Of a DNA stretch of 31,753 bases, positions 7,147 through 31,753 are shown piece after piece. A program made the translations under genes and the position numbers. The notes beneath the pieces are model-generated. The model ran no database searches and was not told the DNA's origin. It was given only the letters and a program-made list of their open reading frames with translations. The stretch lies in the IMG/VR virus record IMGVR_UViG_3300045921_000322, positions 1 to 31,753 of that record, one strand, 5' to 3'. The stretch is from a virus. The first letter of the stretch is position 1. Each line of letters begins with the position of its first letter.

Positions 7147-7887
7147 ATGCAAGACCCGGCCTTTCTATTCTACTACAAAGACTTCATGCTCAGCACCGCC
7201 AAACTGACCAATGCACAGCGTGGAGCATACATCCAGCTCATGTGTCTGCAAGCGACCAATGGTCACGTCACAGAGAAAGATATGATGAACACATGTGCAG
7301 TCATATGTTTTGACACAATGAAAATCACGATGGACAAAGAAGCGCTCAGTTTTGTAAAATCCAAGTTTGTAGAGACCACACCAGGCAGCGGCCATTATAG
7401 AAACCCCCGCCTCACCACAGAAATAGAAAAACGTACAACTTATTCAGAATCAAGGCGTAACAATCGCATGAAAAAGACATCTAAAACATATGATAATACA
7501 TATGATAATACTGTGAACACACATATGGTAAATGTAAATGCAAATGTAAATGAAAATGAAAATAAAGGAAAGGGGGTGCAGGGGGAAAACGAAAAACCTA
7601 CAACATACGCCAACAGAAGAAAGAACATTCCAGCATCAGCAGCAGAAGTGATCGAATTTTTTAAAAACGACTCGGCCTGTATGCTCAATGGAGAATCCGA
7701 GTATCTCGGAAACAGATTTTACAACAACTATGCATCACAGGGCTGGCTGAAGAAAAATAAGATGCCCGTCACGGACTGGAAAGCAGTTGCCCGGGTATGG
7801 GCACAGGATCACCGCAGCGGCGTCTTCAAAAACACCGGTACAGAAAGGGCCACTCCAAAAACATACAGTTACACAGAAGAAGATTAA
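7147..7887 (+). CDS. DUF1376/YdaU-type replication initiator
   Basis: A 246-residue protein. The N-terminus (DPAFLFYYKDFMLSTAKLTNAQRGAYIQLMC) is the DUF1376/YdaU winged-helix start found in phage replication proteins. A low-complexity linker with N, V and E follows (NVNANVNENENKGKG), then a C-terminal helical domain (FYNNYASQGWLKKNKMPVTDWKAVARVWA) seen in helicase-loading replication proteins. It would bind the phage origin and hand over to the DnaC-like loader, whose gene starts 12 bases after its stop. The linker is encoded by short tandem repeats (7487-7510 and 7528-7565) that could slip. No iterons are visible inside the gene. Confidence 0.8.
   Translation: MQDPAFLFYYKDFMLSTAKLTNAQRGAYIQLMCLQATNGHVTEKDMMNTCAVICFDTMKITMDKEALSFVKSKFVETTPGSGHYRNPRLTTEIEKRTTYSESRRNNRMKKTSKTYDNTYDNTVNTHMVNVNANVNENENKGKGVQGENEKPTTYANRRKNIPASAAEVIEFFKNDSACMLNGESEYLGNRFYNNYASQGWLKKNKMPVTDWKAVARVWAQDHRSGVFKNTGTERATPKTYSYTEED
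7487..7565 (+). repeat. short tandem repeats in DUF1376 gene linker
   Basis: ACATATGATAAT occurs twice in tandem (7487-7510), followed by a stretch of AAATGN-type six-base repeats (about 7528-7565). Both keep the reading frame (multiples of three), so copy changes would alter only linker length. Confidence 0.7.
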
Positions 7888-7898
7888 AGCCTATCAAA

Positions 7899-8663
7899 AT
7901 GAAAGAATTAGAAAAAGAAACACAGACATTTCTCTCCAGACTGCGCAAAAATCGCAACTACAGATCACTGCCTGACGTACCCGAAGGATACCGATTCGGA
8001 AACCATAAGGTACATAGCCAGGATCCTGAGACAACAATCCCGACCCTTAGCTATGAAAATTACATGATCATAACCATCAATCTGATGACCAAAAAACTGG
8101 ATAGCACCGGAAAAAAATTAAATCTTAACAATAAAGCCATGACCATCCTGCAGCATATACATCTCAACATCCTGCAGGATCCAGACTCAGATTACAATCC
8201 ATACAAAGGATTTTACGTCTATGGTCCCAATAGTACCGGAAAGAGCTTTGCACTACGGCACACTTTCCAGAGCTTATCCATTGCCCGTACATCACAGAAG
8301 TGGTCCACACCGGATGCCCCAAAGATGCTATCCTACAAGAATGACATCATGATGAGAGCAAGGGCAGAGAAGACCATCGCATTCCTTGCTGAGTATCGTG
8401 GATCCTACTACATCGATGACCTTGGATACAATGACAGCAGCGATCTCAATCTATACGGAAATAAAGAGAAATTCCTTCCGGAGCTCGTCAATATCCTGTA
8501 CGAGCAGCACCTGAAAGGACACCGGCAGCACTTCACGTCAAATGTACCTATCTCTGAGATCGAGAAGACATACGGCAAAGGCACCGCAGACAGACTCAGA
8601 GAGATGTGCAATCTGGTCCTATGGCAGACTGAAATGAATCACCGGACGGGAAAAAAAATATAA
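7899..8663 (+). CDS. dnaC: DnaC-type AAA+ helicase loader
   Basis: A 254-residue ATPase. Walker A GPNSTGKS is at 109-116, Walker B YIDDLG at 171-176, the sensor TSN at 213-215, and YGKGTADRLREMCN carries the arginine-finger region. The long N-terminal part would contact the replicative helicase. No helicase gene is in the window, so it presumably loads the host DnaB. ATG at 7899 was chosen because upstream in-frame codons overlap the DUF1376 gene. The TAA stop (8661-8663) lies inside the left core of the first attC-like site: the cassette array begins exactly at the end of this gene. Confidence 0.88.
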   Translation: MKELEKETQTFLSRLRKNRNYRSLPDVPEGYRFGNHKVHSQDPETTIPTLSYENYMIITINLMTKKLDSTGKKLNLNNKAMTILQHIHLNILQDPDSDYNPYKGFYVYGPNSTGKSFALRHTFQSLSIARTSQKWSTPDAPKMLSYKNDIMMRARAEKTIAFLAEYRGSYYIDDLGYNDSSDLNLYGNKEKFLPELVNILYEQHLKGHRQHFTSNVPISEIEKTYGKGTADRLREMCNLVLWQTEMNHRTGKKI

Positions 8664-8760
8664 CGTTTTTCGGCTTGGTGTCTGTTATTTTGCCTTGCAG
8701 ACATTTCAAGTTTTAGATAAATTTAATAGGCAAAATAATAGCACCAAACCGCTGTTATAC
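8658..8760 (+). repeat. attC-like site 0 (after dnaC)
   Basis: Left core TATAAC (8659-8664, including the dnaC stop), left arm 8671-8695, spacer of 32 bases, right arm 8728-8751, right core GTTATAC at 8754-8760. The arms pair over about 24 bp with one unpaired T (8681) in the left arm. It belongs to a cassette whose gene is missing or was replaced by dnaC. Confidence 0.75.
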
Positions 8761-8773
8761 GCAGCCTTTTATT

Positions 8774-9013
8774 ATGAGTCAATTATCACAACTAAGACAA
8801 GCTTTAACCGATAAATTAATCGAGTGGGCAAAAGATGAGCATCAAACAGAAATAATTGTTGATAGCTTTCTTGAATTTATGGATGCTGCGGAATGGTCGG
8901 AAGATGACCAATTAACAGTATTAGACCAATGTAGAGATTATTTCGTTGATGGATTTATTCGTGAACGATTAATTTATGAAGCTACTACTATTCGTGTAAA
9001 TGCTGGTTATTAA
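8774..9013 (+). CDS. cassette 1: small acidic protein, unknown
   Basis: A 79-residue acidic protein, MSQLSQLRQALTDKLIEWAKDEHQTEIIVDSFLEFMDAAEWSEDDQL..., apparently all-helical. It is the only gene of the first cassette, 19 bases after its G^TT boundary. No family is recognised. Small acidic proteins in phage accessory regions can be anti-defence DNA mimics; net charge alone does not show this. Confidence 0.7.
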   Translation: MSQLSQLRQALTDKLIEWAKDEHQTEIIVDSFLEFMDAAEWSEDDQLTVLDQCRDYFVDGFIRERLIYEATTIRVNAGY

Positions 9014-9019
9014 GGTTGC

Positions 9020-9153
9020 GTATAACGTGCCGGGTGTTGCCGTCAGGCGGGGATTTAAACAACAAAAGTAAAATAGAAATGGAAAACTTAAATAAACGGA
9101 CAAAAGTTGAAACGGAGCAGGTCGCCCCCGCTTGCGGCAATACCTTGTTAGCG
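9020..9153 (+). repeat. attC-like site 1
   Basis: Left core GTATAAC (9020-9026), left arm 9033-9052, spacer of about 72 bases, right arm 9125-9144, right core GTTAGCG (9147-9153). The arms pair over 19 bp allowing G-T wobbles, with an unpaired T at 9043, the same 17 bases from the left core as in site 0. The left core matches the reverse complement of this cassette's own start (GTTATACGCAGCC). Confidence 0.85.
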
Positions 9154-9331
9154 GTTCGGGCTTGTGGTATCTGCGGTTTCCCAAATGTCAAACCCGCATT
9201 AAAAATAAACAGTGTAGATCTTGGTCATTGTTGTTTGTCATTTATTGGCAACTTGTCAAAATGCAACGGTAATACGCTATGGAAAGAATTGGAAATACAA
9301 ACAAATTATATCAACTCAAAAAACAGAAACA

Positions 9332-9475
9332 ATGATTGAAATTAAAAAAAGAAACGGCAACTGGGAAGCATACGTCAATGGCGGATTGTTACACTATTCT
9401 GAAAGTCTCGAAGGGCTTCTGAACTATTTAGCCCGACACGGTGAAGATTTAGAAGAAGAATTGAATAACGAATAA
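9332..9475 (+). CDS. cassette 2: small protein, unknown
   Basis: A 47-residue protein, MIEIKKRNGNWEAYVNGGLLHYSESLEGLLNYLARHGEDLEEELNNE. The start is about 185 bases into the cassette; that leader has no clear gene. Eleven bases separate it from the winged-helix gene, so the two form a small operon. No known domain. Confidence 0.6.
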   Translation: MIEIKKRNGNWEAYVNGGLLHYSESLEGLLNYLARHGEDLEEELNNE

Positions 9476-9486
9476 ACTATTTAACA

Positions 9487-9738
9487 ATGGCAGAATATTA
9501 TCAAATACCTGATTTATCCAAAGAGGTAATGACGGACGTAATCAATTTTGTTACTTCTAAAGAAACCGTATCGACAGCCGAATTGCAGATAAAATTCAAA
9601 TGGGGCTACAACCGTGCAGGTCGCACTATGGATAGATTAAACCAATTTGGAATAGTAGAAGAGTTTCAAGGCGTTAGAAGTCGTAAGGTATTAATGACAA
9701 ATTCAGATGCTCAAAAAGTCATTGCTGGTCTGTCGTAG
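9487..9738 (+). CDS. cassette 2: FtsK-gamma-like winged-helix protein
   Basis: An 83-residue protein. The core VINFVTSKETVSTAELQIKF then KWGYNRAGRTMDRLNQFGIV resembles the FtsK/SpoIIIE gamma domain (pattern S-S-LQR-F-IGYNRAA-L-D-LE--GIV followed by S--R-VL). In FtsK this domain reads KOPS sequences on DNA and activates XerCD recombination. Here it is a free-standing protein with no ATPase motor. It could compete with host FtsK at KOPS, or be a DNA-binding regulator; both are inference. The stop codon is directly before the next attC-like site. Confidence 0.7.
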   Translation: MAEYYQIPDLSKEVMTDVINFVTSKETVSTAELQIKFKWGYNRAGRTMDRLNQFGIVEEFQGVRSRKVLMTNSDAQKVIAGLS

Positions 9739-9744
9739 CCTGAC

Positions 9745-9889
9745 CGCTAACGGACAGGTATTGCCGATGGTGCGGTATTCCGTGTTCCGTCAGCCCAATA
9801 AAAGTAATGAAGATGAATAGAATTATAACAGTTCAGCACATAGGTAGCACATAGGTTTCAGCCGCACTATTGGCAATACCATGTTACCT
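9745..9889 (+). repeat. attC-like site 2
   Basis: Left core CGCTAAC (9745-9751), left arm 9757-9775 and right arm 9862-9880 (17 of 19 positions identical as inverted repeat), spacer of 86 bases, right core GTTACCT (9883-9889). The left core pairs with the start of its own cassette (GTTAGCGGTTCGG at 9147), not with the right core beside it. Confidence 0.85.
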
Positions 9890-9914
9890 GCTGTTGCGGT
9901 TAAATTAAACGACT

Positions 9915-10274
9915 ATGCCAATTAATTATAAGAACTACCCTAAGAACTGGAAAACAGAAATACGTCCTGCAATATTGGAACGTGCTAAAAACAAATGTGA
10001 GTGGTGCGGATTTGCAAACGGGCAACCTGTTTTCAGAGGCAAGACTAAAAATAAAATAGACTGGTTTCCTTGTTATCAGGATGCAGTAGAAAATAGTCAA
10101 ATAGCTTTTGAAGAACCTGTGAAAGTTGTATTGACTATTGCACATCTTGACCATGATGAGTTGAACCACGAAGTAAAATTAGAACGGCTTGCTGCTCTTT
10201 GTCAACTATGCCATTTACGCTATGATGCAAAAGAAAAGTATCGGCGTGTAATGTCTGGTAGCAATAGCAGGTAA
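9915..10274 (+). CDS. cassette 3: HNH-type nuclease-like protein
   Basis: A 119-residue protein with a zinc-ribbon HNH layout: first pair C-EW-C (KNKCEWCGF, about residue 31), then VVLTIAHLDHDELNHE with the catalytic-type histidine region, and a second pair ALCQLCHLRYDAKEK. This fits a small HNH endonuclease that cuts DNA or acts as the nuclease partner of a modification gene. Its TAA stop is part of the attC left core AGGTAAC. The next cassettes carry methyltransferases, so it could be the cutting half of a restriction-modification pair, but cassettes move independently. Confidence 0.75.
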   Translation: MPINYKNYPKNWKTEIRPAILERAKNKCEWCGFANGQPVFRGKTKNKIDWFPCYQDAVENSQIAFEEPVKVVLTIAHLDHDELNHEVKLERLAALCQLCHLRYDAKEKYRRVMSGSNSR

Positions 10275-10399
10275 CGTATGGTGCTTTGCGAAGGCGGGGC
10301 TTTTAACCGATAAACTTAATTAGAAAGATGAAAGATATATTTAACGATAATGTTCCTTTGAAAACGGAAACCCCCGCTTTTGCAAAGCACGTGTTACCA
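10269..10399 (+). repeat. attC-like site 3
   Basis: Left core AGGTAAC (10269-10275), left arm from 10280 to 10299, spacer of about 71 bases with an in-frame ATG at 10328, right arm 10371-10390, right core GTTACCA (10393-10399). The arms are identical at 17 of 19 positions as inverted repeat; differences are wobble-compatible. Confidence 0.85.
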
Positions 10400-11020
10400 G
10401 CAGTGCCTTCTTCGGAGGTTTATTTAGAAGATTGTGTAAAGGCATTAAAACGCTATAACGATAACCACTTTGACTTGGCAATAGTTGACCCGCCTTATGG
10501 GTTAGAAAGATTTAAAAAAGGTGGAAGCCACGTCAATAAACACGGAAGCGAAAACGGACAATGGAATAACGAAAAACCAACCAAAGAATACTTTGACGAA
10601 TTATTTAGAGTTTCTAAAAATCAAATCATTTGGGGTGCAAATAACTTTGAATTACCAACGAGTGAATATTTTATAATATGGCAAAAATCAAATGCAGAGG
10701 ATTTTAGTTTTGCAATGTGCGAAATGGCTTGGACAAATTGCAAAGTGCCCGCAAAAGTTTATAAAAAGTTGCATATTTCAGTTGATGACAAAAATAAAAT
10801 ACACCCAACTCAAAAGCCAATAGAATTATATAGTTGGTTACTTGATAGATACGCAAAGCCAAATGATTTAATTTTAGACACCCACTTAGGAAGTGGAAGC
10901 AGTAGAATTGCAGCGTATAAAGGCGGGTTCAACTTTGTAGGATTTGAGATAGACCAAGAATATTATGAGAAACAAGAAAAGCGTTTTAATGACTTTAAAT
11001 CACAACTTCGGTTATTTTAG
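10328..11020 (+). CDS. cassette 4: beta-class DNA methyltransferase
   Basis: A 230-residue SAM-dependent DNA methyltransferase. Catalytic motif IV DPPY is at 54-57 and the SAM-binding motif I region DTHLGSGSS at about 184-192 near the C-terminus, preceded by HPTQKP; this order is the beta class (N6-adenine or N4-cytosine). The ATG at 10328 lies in the spacer of the preceding attC, so residues 1-22 would be attC-encoded. A GTG at 10391, whose G is the predicted cut point, or a GTG at 10403, would start nearer the conserved region EVYLEDCVKALKRY. The conserved part is complete either way. No restriction enzyme partner is adjacent, apart from the HNH cassette. Confidence 0.85.
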   Translation: MKDIFNDNVPLKTETPAFAKHVLPAVPSSEVYLEDCVKALKRYNDNHFDLAIVDPPYGLERFKKGGSHVNKHGSENGQWNNEKPTKEYFDELFRVSKNQIIWGANNFELPTSEYFIIWQKSNAEDFSFAMCEMAWTNCKVPAKVYKKLHISVDDKNKIHPTQKPIELYSWLLDRYAKPNDLILDTHLGSGSSRIAAYKGGFNFVGFEIDQEYYEKQEKRFNDFKSQLRLF

Positions 11021-11038
11021 CGGTGTCGGTGGCATTGC

Positions 11039-11169
11039 TGGTAATTTGGCGGCTTGGCGAAGTGGGGGAATTATACCCACAAAAGCCGATTAGAATTACT
11101 AATGTTTAATAAAAGTACAAATGATGAATAAAGAACAAATGCCCCCATTTTGCCAAACCGATGTTACCA
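11039..11169 (+). repeat. attC-like site 4
   Basis: Left core TGGTAAT (11039-11045), with the usual final C changed to T, left arm 11050-11068, spacer of about 73 bases with ATG codons at 11121 and 11124, right arm 11142-11160, right core GTTACCA (11163-11169). The arms match at 16 of 19 positions. Confidence 0.8.
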
Positions 11170-12089
11170 GCAGTGCATCGCTTGACCTTTTTGGTAATAA
11201 AGTTTTAGATAAAAAAAACCTTTCTGATTGGTTTATAGTTCCACCTTTTTCTGTTTTAAATGTATCTACCAATACTTGGCAGGAAAGAAAAAAAATATGG
11301 ATGAAGAGAATTGACGATAAGGCACAGGCAAGAAAAAACAAATTGACAATGAAGGCTAAAAGCGGTATTGGGCTTCAACAAGGAATTGAATTTATGTCAA
11401 TAAAAGGAGATACTACGTCTATTTTAGACCCTGTTTTGTGTGAAGTATTGCTACATTGGTTTACTAACGAAAACCATAAATGTTTCGACCCATTTGCTGG
11501 GGATGCTGTATTTGGATTTTGTTCAGCATATAAAAATAGACCATTTATAGGAATTGAATTAAGGAGTGAACAGGTTGAATTTAATCAAACACTAATTGAT
11601 TTACACGGATTAGATGGCAGATACATATGTGATGATGCCGTTAATGTAACTAAACACATTGAAAGAGAAAGTGTTGATTTTATTTTTTCTTGCCCTCCAT
11701 ATGCCGATTTAGAAATATACAGTGATTTGGAAAACGATTTATCAAATATGGATTATGATGTTTTTTTTAATACAATAGATAAAGTATTTACCGACTGCTA
11801 CAGCAGATTAAAAAATAACCGATTTGCAGCTATTGTAATTGGTGAAGTTCGTCATAAAAATACTGGGGTGTATTTAGGATTAGTTCCTAAAATTACAAAA
11901 ATAATGATGGATGCAGGGTTTAATTATTATAATGAGATGATACTTGCAACTCCAATTGGTAATTTACACATGAGGGCAGGTAATTATATGAGTGGGAGTA
12001 GAAAAATTGGTAAACAACACCAAAACGTTTTAATATTTTACAAAGGGAATACTAAATTTATTAAAAAAGAATTTAAACAGTTAAAATGA
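11121..12089 (+). CDS. cassette 5: DNA methyltransferase, likely N4-cytosine/N6-adenine
   Basis: A 322-residue methyltransferase. A conserved front domain (LDKKNLSDWFIVPPFSVLN...WQERKKIWM, about 29-61) is followed by ILDPVLCEVL, motif I DPFAGDAVFG at 123-132 and catalytic motif SCPPY at 190-194, then GEVRHKNTGVYLG and a C-terminal target-binding part. It is a known layout for phage and mobile-element methyltransferases. The conserved front domain begins before any start codon inside the cassette, so translation probably starts at 11121 or 11124 in the preceding attC spacer; the first 14 residues are then attC-encoded. It overlaps the next gene (ATGA). Confidence 0.85.
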   Translation: MMNKEQMPPFCQTDVTSSASLDLFGNKVLDKKNLSDWFIVPPFSVLNVSTNTWQERKKIWMKRIDDKAQARKNKLTMKAKSGIGLQQGIEFMSIKGDTTSILDPVLCEVLLHWFTNENHKCFDPFAGDAVFGFCSAYKNRPFIGIELRSEQVEFNQTLIDLHGLDGRYICDDAVNVTKHIERESVDFIFSCPPYADLEIYSDLENDLSNMDYDVFFNTIDKVFTDCYSRLKNNRFAAIVIGEVRHKNTGVYLGLVPKITKIMMDAGFNYYNEMILATPIGNLHMRAGNYMSGSRKIGKQHQNVLIFYKGNTKFIKKEFKQLK

Positions 12090-12376
12090 AGGCAGAGATA
12101 TATAATATAAGTGGATGGATTAATTCAGTTGATGAATTAGAAATTAAAAAATATTTTGATGAATTACTTTTAAAAAGTGGATTTACAATTTTAAACTATC
12201 AAAGTCATCAATTTAGTCCAATAGGATACACAGGATTATGGTTGCTTGGAGAAAGTCATTTTGCGGTACATACATTCCCAGAGGAAATTAAAAGTTATAT
12301 TGAATTGTCAAGCTGTAATTATAATTTTTACGAAACATTTAAATCGGAGTGTGGTGCCTTTTGGCATTGCTGGTAA
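12086..12376 (+). CDS. cassette 5: S-adenosylmethionine decarboxylase-like protein
   Basis: A 96-residue protein. GLWLLGESHFAVHTFPE (about 50-66) matches the prokaryotic SpeH/AdoMetDC signature, in which the E-S bond (E56-S57) self-cleaves to make the pyruvoyl group, and LSSCNY supplies the catalytic cysteine region (C77). The family normally makes decarboxylated SAM for spermidine. Here it is translationally coupled (ATGA) to a SAM-dependent methyltransferase, so it may tune or deplete SAM; depletion would blunt SAM-dependent restriction. Its TAA stop lies inside the attC left core. It is slightly shorter than typical SpeH (about 120 residues). Confidence 0.75.
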   Translation: MKAEIYNISGWINSVDELEIKKYFDELLLKSGFTILNYQSHQFSPIGYTGLWLLGESHFAVHTFPEEIKSYIELSSCNYNFYETFKSECGAFWHCW

Positions 12377-12502
12377 CGTGGTTGCGCTTGGCGCAGTGGC
12401 GGATTTCGGAGAACGGAACTGTCAATACACCACAAATGCTGATGCGAGGTAGAATGTTTAATTAACCACTGAACCCGCCATTGAGCCAAACGCATGTTAG
12501 CG
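12371..12502 (+). repeat. attC-like site 5
   Basis: Left core TGGTAAC (12371-12377), left arm 12383-12402, spacer of 72 bases, right arm 12475-12494, right core GTTAGCG (12496-12502). The arms match at 17 of 20 positions as inverted repeat. The left core pairs with the start of its own cassette (GTTACCAGCAGTGC at 11163). Confidence 0.85.
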
Positions 12503-12536
12503 GCTGGGCTTTGTCGGGATCTAAAATTGAAAACGA

Positions 12537-12974
12537 ATGAATACAGAATTGATGTTTAGTAGTAAGACGGAAATGTGGGCTACTCCACAAGACTTCTTTG
12601 ATAAGATGAACGAGCAATACAATTTTTCTTTAGATGTATGTGCAATTTCAGACAACGCAAAGTGCGCCAATTTTTTTACTCCCGAAATGGACGGATTAAA
12701 ACAAGATTGGAAAGGCACTTGTTGGATGAACCCACCATACGGAAGAGAAATTGGCAAATGGGTTGCAAAGGCTTATGATGAAGCAGTAGAAAAGAAAAAT
12801 TGTATTGTGGTGGCATTGTTGCCTGCCCGAACCGATACAAAATGGTTTCACGATTACATTTATATGATGTATGGGGTCGAAGTAGATTTTATTAAGGGCA
12901 GGCTAAAATTTGGTAACGGTAAAAATTCAGCCCCATTTCCGTCTATGGTGGTTGTCTTTAAGCCTTGCCGCTAA
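12537..12974 (+). CDS. dam: cassette 6: phage-type N6-adenine DNA methyltransferase
   Basis: A 145-residue methyltransferase of the phage Dam family: FSSKTEMWATPQDFFDKMNEQYNFSLDVCA at the front (residues 7-36), catalytic NPPY at 65-68, then GKWVAKAYDEAV and FIKGRLKFG. It methylates adenine in a short DNA motif, probably to protect phage DNA from host restriction. It is somewhat shorter than the usual 160-180 residues but has all the main blocks. The stop TAA is part of the core CGCTAAC (12969-12975), after which the attC arm sequence is missing. Confidence 0.88.
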   Translation: MNTELMFSSKTEMWATPQDFFDKMNEQYNFSLDVCAISDNAKCANFFTPEMDGLKQDWKGTCWMNPPYGREIGKWVAKAYDEAVEKKNCIVVALLPARTDTKWFHDYIYMMYGVEVDFIKGRLKFGNGKNSAPFPSMVVVFKPCR

Positions 12975-12975
12975 C
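12969..12975 (+). repeat. attC left half-site at the right edge of the array
   Basis: CGCTAAC pairs with the start of its own cassette (GTTAGCG at 12496), as in the other cassettes. No matching arms or GTTA core follow, so the array is truncated here and phage sequence resumes. Confidence 0.65.
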
Positions 12976-13060
12976 GTTCCTACTTACGCCATAAACATTC
13001 GTATATAACTCCAAACAGCACAAAACACGCCAAATATGTTAATTTTATAATACTACAATC

Positions 13061-29933: not shown

Positions 29934-29961
29934 AGCCTGGCAGTATTCTGCCGGGCTTTTT
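29934..29961. terminator. bidirectional terminator
   Basis: AGCCTGGCAG and CTGCCGGGCT pair around TATT (one mismatch/wobble), followed by T-rich sequence. It lies between the end of the late operon and the end of the convergent integrase gene. Confidence 0.85.
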
Positions 29962-31096
29962 ATTTTATGCCAAATACTTTATCTATATCTTTAAGTGTAG
30001 ATATAGCAGACTGCACACCATCAATCTTTACATACTTCCGAAACTCCCTCTCAGTCTTATGCCCGGTTATGGCCATGATTTTATGAGTGTCCACACCAGC
30101 GAGCACCATATTAGTAGCAAAAGTCCTACGAGCTGTATGAGAGCTCACACTGGACCAATATTGAATCCCCACTGCCTTACAGCTTTCTTTAATATAATCA
30201 TTAAGCCGCTGCCTGCTTATCTCATGAGTATTAATCTTCATCAGATAATCCAACTTAGAGCTCACAGGGATACTGACAGTATGGTTAGTTTTTAACTGTC
30301 TGATAGATACCATCCGTACACCATTAACTTCATATATCATTTCATTATTCAGTTTTGTATATGTCTGCCACCGCTGACCGGTCAGACATCCCCGCAAGAA
30401 TATAGTAATAGCATTCTGATATCTCGGATCTGCTGACTTTAGGTATTCAAATAATAGTTCAATATCATGGAGAGTTAAATATACATTATCCACATCTTCA
30501 GCACCGGGAAGGAAGTTGCGGGTCATGTGGTATTTATTCTCGTGTATGTTATCAATATAAGCATCCGAGCATAATGCTCTCCATACCTTGAATATCCTGT
30601 GCACATAATTCTTTTTATATCCTTTTCCGAAAAGATAATTTTCAAACTGCTGAGCCTTCAGCTTATTCATGTCAGTAAACTCAAAGGATGGGCACCAGTC
30701 CAGTATCTTCTCGATATATCTCCTATATTGATTAAGTGTGAGCATCTTAACAGAATGCTTCTTAGACTCGACCCAGTAATCAACATATTTTTTGAATGCA
30801 GAATCTTTTTTCCCAAAGATTCTTTCATTAATAGCTTCCTTCAGCTTATTTTTATATACATACTCCCCATTGATCCTGCACTGCCTGATGTAAGAAATCA
30901 CCCAAAGTTCAAGACCATCAAGTAAAGTATTAAGATCAATGTATCCGGAGTATGTACTCTTAGCTCTCTGTTTCTTCTTATCCCAATGCTTCAGATCAAT
31001 AGATTCCTTTAAGGAAATCCTTACCCTTTCCTTCTTTGATATATAATACCAAAGATAGATCACACCCTTGTCTATATAAAACTTAACCTTGCTCAT
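29960..31096 (-). CDS. int: tyrosine integrase, Bacteroidetes phage type
   Basis: A 378-residue integrase with all six catalytic residues: R242 in LTGQRW, K269 in QLKTNH, H320 and R323 in SSHTARRTF, H346 in ITGHKT and Y355 in EFRKYV. The N-terminal arm-binding domain (KFYIDKGVIYLWYYISKKERVRISLKESI) and a SAM-like core-binding domain precede it. I chose ATG 31096 (MSKVKFYID); an ATG 78 bases upstream would add a hydrophobic extension and bury the operator. It would recombine attP (31222-31240) with the 3' end of host ssrA. It is not an IntI-type enzyme, as it lacks a visible IntI-specific insertion. Confidence 0.93.
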   Translation of the reverse strand: MSKVKFYIDKGVIYLWYYISKKERVRISLKESIDLKHWDKKKQRAKSTYSGYIDLNTLLDGLELWVISYIRQCRINGEYVYKNKLKEAINERIFGKKDSAFKKYVDYWVESKKHSVKMLTLNQYRRYIEKILDWCPSFEFTDMNKLKAQQFENYLFGKGYKKNYVHRIFKVWRALCSDAYIDNIHENKYHMTRNFLPGAEDVDNVYLTLHDIELLFEYLKSADPRYQNAITIFLRGCLTGQRWQTYTKLNNEMIYEVNGVRMVSIRQLKTNHTVSIPVSSKLDYLMKINTHEISRQRLNDYIKESCKAVGIQYWSSVSSHTARRTFATNMVLAGVDTHKIMAITGHKTEREFRKYVKIDGVQSAISTLKDIDKVFGIK

Positions 31097-31103
31097 AATA
31101 TTA

Positions 31104-31123
31104 GCGTGCACTATAGCGTACAC
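31104..31123. promoter_or_regulatory. compound operator before integrase
   Basis: Two GCGTRCAC boxes separated by TATA (GCGTGCAC, TATA, GCGTACAC), eight bases before the integrase ATG. The same structure, with the R bases swapped, precedes the HNH gene. It lies just downstream of the minus-strand -7 box. Confidence 0.65.
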
Positions 31124-31134
31124 TTTTACAATAA

Positions 31135-31142
31135 CAAAGATA
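31135..31142 (-). promoter_or_regulatory. -7 box of integrase promoter
   Basis: The minus strand reads TATCTTTG, an exact TAnnTTTG, identical to the HNH promoter box. No clear TTG is visible at -33. Confidence 0.6.
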
Positions 31143-31221
31143 ATTACATTATAAATATATATCATTATAAACACATTAATATTATAATTATCAATAAATT
31201 AAAGATATATATCATTCTTGG

Positions 31222-31354: not shown

Positions 31355-31753
31355 ATGGAGAATATAAGACCAACATGGCTCGGAAACAATAAAAATAATA
31401 CCAGGAAAAGCACAGCAGATCCCAGGTATAAGACTAATCGGTGGAAGGTATATTCATATCAATATAGACAGAAAAATCCACTTTGCGCTATTTGTGACAA
31501 AGAAAATAAAGTGTCAGCTTCTGAACTCGTTGATCACATCATCAGAGTAAACTTTGGCGGTAGCTTCTATGATAAAAGAAATCATCAGGCATTGTGCCGG
31601 ACTTGCCATGATCTAAAATCTTTCAAAGAGCGTAACGGATTAACCTATCCTTATTCACTCAACGAATCAGGAGAGAAGATCCCATATCAGGGGGGGGGTA
31701 TTTTAACCCAAAGAGTATGCCTTCCGACCCCACAGGCCTCGTGTCTGTCGAGT
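31355..31753 (+). CDS. HNH endonuclease of the packaging module (runs off the window)
   Basis: A zinc-ribbon HNH nuclease: CAIC (44-47), ELVDHII (D60, H61), NHQALCRTCH (N77, H78, C81, C84, H85). Such nucleases next to terminase genes help cut cos sites in HK97-like phages. The frame runs past a nine-G run (31690-31698) to the window edge and, after circularisation, on to the TGA at 373. If one G were gained, the frame would end after GYFNPKSMPSDPTGLVSVE; if one were lost, it would stop shortly after the run. Which C-terminus is used is open. Confidence 0.8.
   Translation, partial: MENIRPTWLGNNKNNTRKSTADPRYKTNRWKVYSYQYRQKNPLCAICDKENKVSASELVDHIIRVNFGGSFYDKRNHQALCRTCHDLKSFKERNGLTYPYSLNESGEKIPYQGGGILTQRVCLPTPQASCLSS
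31690..31698. repeat. nine-G homopolymer inside HNH gene
   Basis: The only long G run in the window. It controls which of three C-terminal frames is read, so it may be a slippage site or an assembly error. Confidence 0.6.
31724..31753. repeat. terminal direct repeat, right copy
   Basis: Exact copy of the first 30 bases. Joining the ends keeps the HNH reading frame open into the left end of the window. Confidence 0.9.

Follow-up and report, generated by a model that had tools for sequence, protein, structure and literature searches.

An array of hairpin-first gene cassettes in a temperate phage and its probable place in a Bacteroidota integron system

We analysed a 31,753-nt stretch of viral DNA (IMG/VR record IMGVR_UViG_3300045921_000322, hereafter the window) that carries an array of six units at 8661..12976 on the + strand, each unit consisting of a folded, attC-like hairpin followed by its gene or genes, with all genes reading in the + direction. 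We hold with good confidence that this array belongs to a branch, adapted to phages and with its genes inverted, of an integron system that is specific to Bacteroidota and has been little described; the branch would serve to exchange anti-restriction genes. Comparing sequences, we could establish the unit boundaries, the inversion of the genes, the pairing of the unit's outer arms, the movement of units between sister isolates, and the linkage of such arrays to a tyrosine recombinase in host genomes and in four phage-like contigs. The system works like an integron, and two canonical features are missing from it, namely an IntI enzyme with its insertion and a cassette that reads as an open reading frame (ORF) followed by its attC. 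The setting was confirmed to be a complete-looking temperate phage, circularly assembled: the window encodes TerS, TerL, a portal, a major head protein, a tape measure protein, a repressor-like protein and a DnaC-like loader, and a 30-bp direct terminal repeat (CCGACCCCACAGGCCTCGTGTCTGTCGAGT, positions 1-30 and 31724-31753) is consistent with the overlap of a circular assembly.

The six sites and the units that they begin

A hairpin detector that looks for TAAC followed by 4-6 nt, a 9-bp stem, an inner stem with its loop, a further 2 nt and GTTA called five of the six sites in the window and none in 30 dinucleotide shuffles of it. A covariance model (R1), built from 52 diverse sites that did not include S1 and S3, recovered all six on the + strand, including these two (E-values from R1 are approximate, and large searches scored only the top candidates of each genome). 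The sites lie at 8661..8757 (S1, E=7e-7), 9023..9150 (S2), 9748..9886 (S3, E=6e-8), 10272..10396 (S4), 11042..11166 (S5) and 12374..12499 (S6). S5, which the detector missed, has the degenerate left core TAAT in place of TAAC and was placed from its sequence and R1, while the TAA of S1 is at the same time the stop codon of the helicase loader gene that precedes the array. A preliminary description of this DNA had proposed six such sites among same-direction genes within a phage, and this was borne out, with site lengths of 97-139 bp that come near the 103-145 bp given there.

The sites have the attC type of fold, with TAAC/GTTA cores and paired arms. In an alignment of sites with 139 columns, 89.7% of the cells were paired, compared to 62% upon shuffling, and sliding the alignment reduced the paired cells from 90% to at most 51%. 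The stems also covary, with 308 cells altered on both sides versus 112 in shuffles. Composition and skew shift across the array. With six sites, where at least two attC define such a cluster, and no array-type recombinase in the window, the array qualifies as a cluster of attC sites lacking integron integrases (CALIN), although its genes are inverted.

We found that the identity of a hairpin tracks the gene downstream of it. For array pairs with only the downstream gene in common, the median hairpin identity was 0.90 (n=167), as opposed to a background-level 0.50 (n=54) for pairs with only the upstream gene in common and 0.55 for unrelated pairs. Upon excluding pattern-matched sites, hairpins were at least 0.9 identical in 7 of 22 downstream-sharing and 0 of 25 upstream-sharing pairs (p=0.002), and in upstream-only pairs the homology broke off directly after TAACG, left of the hairpin. 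Because hairpin identity follows the downstream gene and homology ends at TAACG, the unit is the hairpin plus the following gene, the reverse of an integron cassette. Hence, the window holds exactly six complete units up to a bare TAACG box at 12972-12976, where the array terminates, and no hairpin was present for a seventh site at 12972-13039. The earlier view of the sites as 3' attC sites separating the genes has to be given up accordingly, as each hairpin belongs to its downstream gene. In a blastn comparison, Flavobacterium phage hemulen6-1 matched window positions 10271-11044, that is, the S4 hairpin together with the unit 4 gene, with the hairpin being ~94% identical to that before the homologous gene in hemulen6-1. 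Single-site blastn against phages and plasmids gave no match because the loops diverge.

Units are furthermore bounded by outer arms: the ~15 nt that run from a unit's initial GTTA can pair with the ~15 nt leading up to the TAAC at its end, and each unit in the window shows this pairing between its own start and end. Beyond the core, 7.8 of 12 positions matched, compared to 4.1 with shuffled partners, and position 11 carried a near-absolute mismatch (match 0.00-0.06) in phages and hosts alike. Since the two arms meet only in a circular unit, it is there that they would extend the hairpin. In canonical integrons the outer arms measure 7 nt.

Movement, orientation and the array-linked recombinase

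Whole units distinguish phage isolates of Flavobacterium from the Baltic. Upon comparing lillamy9-6 and lillamy9-7, we found a 439-bp unit, 100% identical in the two, that was internal in 9-6 and located at the array end, before AACTACAATATTACAT, in 9-7. In lillamy9-7 the internal place was sealed and the moved unit began with its hairpin, whereas in lillamy9-6 the place before AACTACAATATTACAT, an attI-like end, was empty; the two genomes do not give the direction of the move. The pairs mumin6-1/6-3 and snork6-1/6-2 each differed by the exact gain or loss of one unit. Precise excision or insertion of single cassettes is thus seen in relatives carrying the system, which may acquire a unit at the attI-like end. 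Hemulen6-1 and filifjonk9-1, the members of the Baltic group examined for it, lack an array-type recombinase, which implies an enzyme acting in trans.

Sites of this family recur in Bacteroidota genomes and in viral contigs. Searches with one 16-base site pattern, which biases the sample of loci towards one site subtype, returned more than 119 stretches in viral contigs and more than 119 in bacterial genomes; among the viral-contig matches listed, 91 of 123 also carried the right half of the site, and among the loci listed, 43 of the 119 viral ones and 17 of the 119 from genomes had arrays of three or more sites. At E<=1e-4, R1 matched 80 of 148 Bacteroidota genomes, whereas the 61 genomes from the Streptomyces phylum, the 80 from the Vibrio phylum and a mixed set of 9 non-Bacteroidota genomes gave no match. 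Among the genomes tested, the site family (TAAC, 4-6 nt, covarying stems, 2 nt, GTTA) is therefore confined to Bacteroidota and their phages. Upon scoring the orientation of the genes between sites, as judged from the longest ORF, we counted 157 + and 6 - in phages versus 0 + and 68 - in hosts. Chromosomal arrays thus follow the canonical plan of an ORF with a 3' site, whereas phage units carry the site at the 5' end and depart from the canonical cassette in which the ORF precedes its attC.

Of 29 site-bearing genomes, 16 had their best IntI-like tyrosine recombinase at 0.6-4.2 kb from a site, and 15 of these 16 linked cases had the same layout, with the recombinase followed by the array in the same direction. 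The linked enzyme is XerA/IntI-like and ends like IntI (SPLD/SPFD), but it does not carry the IntI insertion, with 21 residues between matched blocks compared to 63 in VchIntIA (query 280-301 versus VchIntIA 180-243), leaving the host recombinase ~40 residues short of it. It scored 167-209 bits, where the cut-off of the integron integrase model TIGR02249 is 265, and an IntI with the family-specific insertion encoded in cis is accordingly not what we found. Most copies have an extra N-terminal region with no Pfam match. In the Bacteroidota genomes L281-L301, whose integron-like loci have the recombinase reading toward the array, the N-terminal 80-100 aa show a recurring W-S-x-T...W pattern; a HARP-like N-terminal domain, suspected by eye in the host recombinases, found no support in Pfam and was dropped.

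Four of the 49 array-bearing viral records encoded a recombinase of the same family, placed at the same array end and reading with the inverted genes, and these phage recombinases formed one clade (99/93). The largest array, on a 169,658-bp viral contig (L315-L317, 77777-116503), comprises 38 sites followed by an intact recombinase gene; many of its cassette ORFs are methyltransferase-like, making it a phage super-integron. Direct scans of the four recombinase-bearing contigs revealed a portal gene in one and TerL in another. Several arrays end with a TAACT-type sequence, often followed by TATA, both in hosts (L284, L285, L286, L291 and L293) and in phages (L049, L080, L320 and L248), and this end is a candidate attI common to the two.

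Proposed mechanism and competing explanations

We suggest that a unit moves by the action of a XerA/IntI-like tyrosine recombinase supplied by the integron of a host chromosome or by another phage. Such an enzyme would act on the folded strand, probably a single-stranded substrate, and cut it at TAAC(G), which reads G^TTA on the opposite strand. The unit would come free as a circle whose ~15-nt outer arms complete the hairpin, and this circle could then enter a different site or an array's attI-like end. Movement would thus obey the rules of integron recombination, with the gene inverted relative to the site in comparison to host cassettes and with the start codon often placed within the hairpin loop.

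Several observations weigh against this account. The window encodes no IntI or array-type recombinase, so movement there must be in trans, and none was found in hemulen6-1, filifjonk9-1 or P12002S either. A search of viral contigs for relatives of the window phage by helicase loader and portal returned none, and hence no empty site, which in a close relative would be expected to read ...AAAAAAAATATAACG|TTCCTACTTACG; nor was the window's own array seen to move. The right end of that array (TAACGTTCC...) is without the TAACT...-type, attI-like sequence found in several relatives. Of the 22 non-ascertained pairs with a common downstream gene, 12 carry different hairpins, indicating that hairpins are sometimes replaced. 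Two of the four recombinase-bearing contigs have weak support for a phage nature, for which PHROG terminase searches with single families were too narrow to settle each contig. The bias of the 16-base pattern and the reliance of the orientation counts on the longest ORF belong on the same side of the balance.

Three other explanations were weighed. The phage could have retained ordinary integron cassettes, each a gene followed by its attC, as an integrase-less cluster. The site plan, the parallel genes and the attC-like cores would all fit, as would published phage arrays, in one of which, that of P12002L, a site was recombined by IntI1 (PMC9892861). Yet no hairpin went with the upstream gene at 0.9 or above in the 25 non-ascertained pairs, the array closes without a terminal hairpin, the moved lillamy9-7 unit starts with its hairpin, and gene orientation differs between phage and host; on this polarity we rejected the canonical integron reading, and we consider it very unlikely. 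About as unlikely is a methyltransferase mosaic assembled by homologous or illegitimate recombination, with the hairpins acting as terminators or translation-control elements instead of recombination sites. Phage genomes are indeed mosaic, the hairpins stand between genes with ORFs often beginning in the loop, and some genes occur with different hairpins, but an assembly of this kind would sit poorly with covarying stems, an arm match within units that includes one fixed mismatch, breakpoints at TAACG, the clean sealing behind a whole unit relocated to the attI-like end, and the link to a tyrosine recombinase.

Finally, the cassette system could be the same and its mover unrelated to the chromosomal integron enzyme, for instance the phage's own integrase or host XerC/D. 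Most array-bearing phage records are without the recombinase family, and the window has an integrase of its own, a 404-aa protein (29960..31174, - strand) that is the only tyrosine recombinase in the window. However, this protein carries an arm-binding domain as ordinary phage integrases do (Pfam Arm-DNA-bind_5 and Phage_int_SAM_5) and is very distant from the array-associated family, sharing no more than 22% identity and joining it by a very long branch. That family is itself linked to arrays in hosts and, at the same array end, in four phage-like contigs. We regard an unrelated mover as very unlikely. The preliminary description had already noted that IntI is missing from the window and had placed the mover in trans, which holds; of the two options that it offered, the evidence favours that of a distinct but related cassette system. 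The related phages with varying arrays that it called for were found in the lillamy, mumin and snork isolates, and in Bacteroidota genomes the same site family does adjoin a recombinase. Its suggestion of a new vehicle for cassettes did not stand, as phage attC arrays had already been published (PMC9892861).

Extending the inverted-branch reading beyond the window, we think it reasonably probable that Bacteroidota phages have an integron class of their own, comprising a separate recombinase clade, arrays that reach at least 38 cassettes, and inverted genes for which the site doubles as translation start region. Its pool, mainly anti-restriction, would be separated from that of the host by orientation, and the host side would be a widespread Bacteroidota system that current finders miss because the IntI signature is absent from its integrase.

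Cassette genes, known integrons and significance

The array is flanked on the left by a gene for a phage DnaC-like helicase loader (7797..8663, + strand; PHROG 3277, E=3e-8), and the unit genes, all on the + strand, include three methyltransferases across the six units. Unit 1 encodes a 79-aa protein with no Pfam match (8774..9013). Unit 2 starts with a leader ORF predicted from the sequence (9079..9339) that begins in the hairpin loop, passes through the right arm and overlaps the next start with its stop (ATGATTGA); it is followed by a 47-aa ORF with no assigned function (gene a, 9332..9475) and by a stand-alone FtsK gamma domain of 83 aa (gene b, 9487..9738; PF09397, E=2e-16). As this domain normally activates XerCD recombination, its presence as cargo beside a Xer-type cassette system is curious. 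Unit 3 encodes a 119-aa protein with two CxxC motifs, HNH-like by eye and with no Pfam match (9915..10274). N6/N4 DNA methyltransferases are encoded by unit 4 (10328..11020; PF01555, E=2e-18) and by gene a of unit 5 (11121..12089; PF01555, E=6e-13), the first ATG lying within the S4 and the S5 hairpin loop, respectively. The latter gene has four relatives at 69% identity; where a site was detected, the relative begins inside the hairpin of its own locus. Gene b of unit 5 is S-adenosylmethionine decarboxylase-like (12086..12376; PF02675, E=2e-14), with its stop being the TAA of S6; sharing a unit with a DNA methyltransferase, it could influence the S-adenosylmethionine supply. Unit 6 encodes a Dam-type DNA adenine methyltransferase (12537..12974; PF05869, E=5e-30) whose stop is the TAA of the terminal TAACG.

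Of 162 phage units, 72 had a main ORF whose first ATG fell inside the hairpin. These loop starts were biased in frame (45 in frame 0, 25 in frame 2 and 2 in frame 1), and stop codons that the site sequence imposes may account for part of this bias. At 11121-11190 of the window, as at many other places in phages (e.g., L051:3813-4583), the methyltransferase reading frame extends across the right arm of the site, which would give the protein an N-terminal tag (PFCQTDV..., ITEQPFCQTRV...). Translation would then begin from within the hairpin loop.

Cargo differed in kind. The 133 phage cassette ORFs gave at least 56 family hits to DNA methyltransferases, compared to 2 of 68 ORFs from hosts for the C5 family, counts that include some near-duplicates in the cassette protein set. 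Single phage cassette ORFs matched the Thoeris inhibitor Tad3 and Rad52; host cassettes were diverse, with restriction and defence-like genes among them. In earlier work, one methyltransferase was missing from all muminphages whose plating on LMO6 was reduced, and both of those tested regained plating after growth on LMO6 (PMC7077304), a pattern that fits anti-restriction. Methyltransferases mark DNA and can thereby conceal that of a phage from the defences of bacteria. Most likely, the array is an anti-restriction set whose members can be exchanged, with mainly orphan DNA methyltransferases as cargo, and the window's own genes may protect this phage in the same manner.

Like chromosomal (Vibrio) and class 1 integrons, the system combines a recombinase beside the array with the logic of circular cassettes, a move to an attI-like end, a G^TTA crossover and an IntI-like C-terminus (SPLD/SPFD). 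It differs in its Bacteroidota recombinase, which is without the IntI insertion and below the TIGR02249 cut-off, in outer arms of ~15 nt and in the inverted phage genes; the absence of R1 matches in the 80 Vibrio-phylum genomes likewise sets it apart from Vibrio chromosomal integrons. Qi et al. 2023 described 17 phage arrays without integrase, including that of Polaribacter phage P12002L with methyltransferases, for which only "divergent directions" were noted (PMC9892861). These phage CALINs share the attC-like hairpins, the parallel cassettes, the methyltransferase cargo and the lack of a phage integrase, and P12002S, the sister of P12002L, has two sites of the window's site family; the gene inversion, the Bacteroidota recombinase and the split between host and phage were not described there (PMC9892861). 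Three complete integrons in temperate phages, also reported in that work, are alike in joining an integrase and cassettes within a phage, but are of bacterial type, unlike the single phage recombinase clade found here that reads with inverted genes (PMC9892861). We found no account of an inverted-cassette phage integron, or of a Bacteroidota integron with linked recombinase, in the literature searched, which left preprints and most subscription journals outside, and we provisionally regard the inverted phage branch and the recombinase-array linkage as new.

According to IntegronFinder 2.0, integrons are nearly absent from Bacteroidetes, with one complete case in Salinibacter (PMC9024848), and despite this near-absence 80 of the 148 Bacteroidota genomes sampled match R1. 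That one site family should carry genes in opposite orientation in phages and in hosts was unexpected, and it makes gene flow between the two pools directly measurable. Sister isolates that differ by one moved cassette offer a testable laboratory system. By swapping methyltransferases, phages may change which hosts restrict them, which would provide a mechanism for the plating differences recorded in Flavobacterium (PMC7077304).

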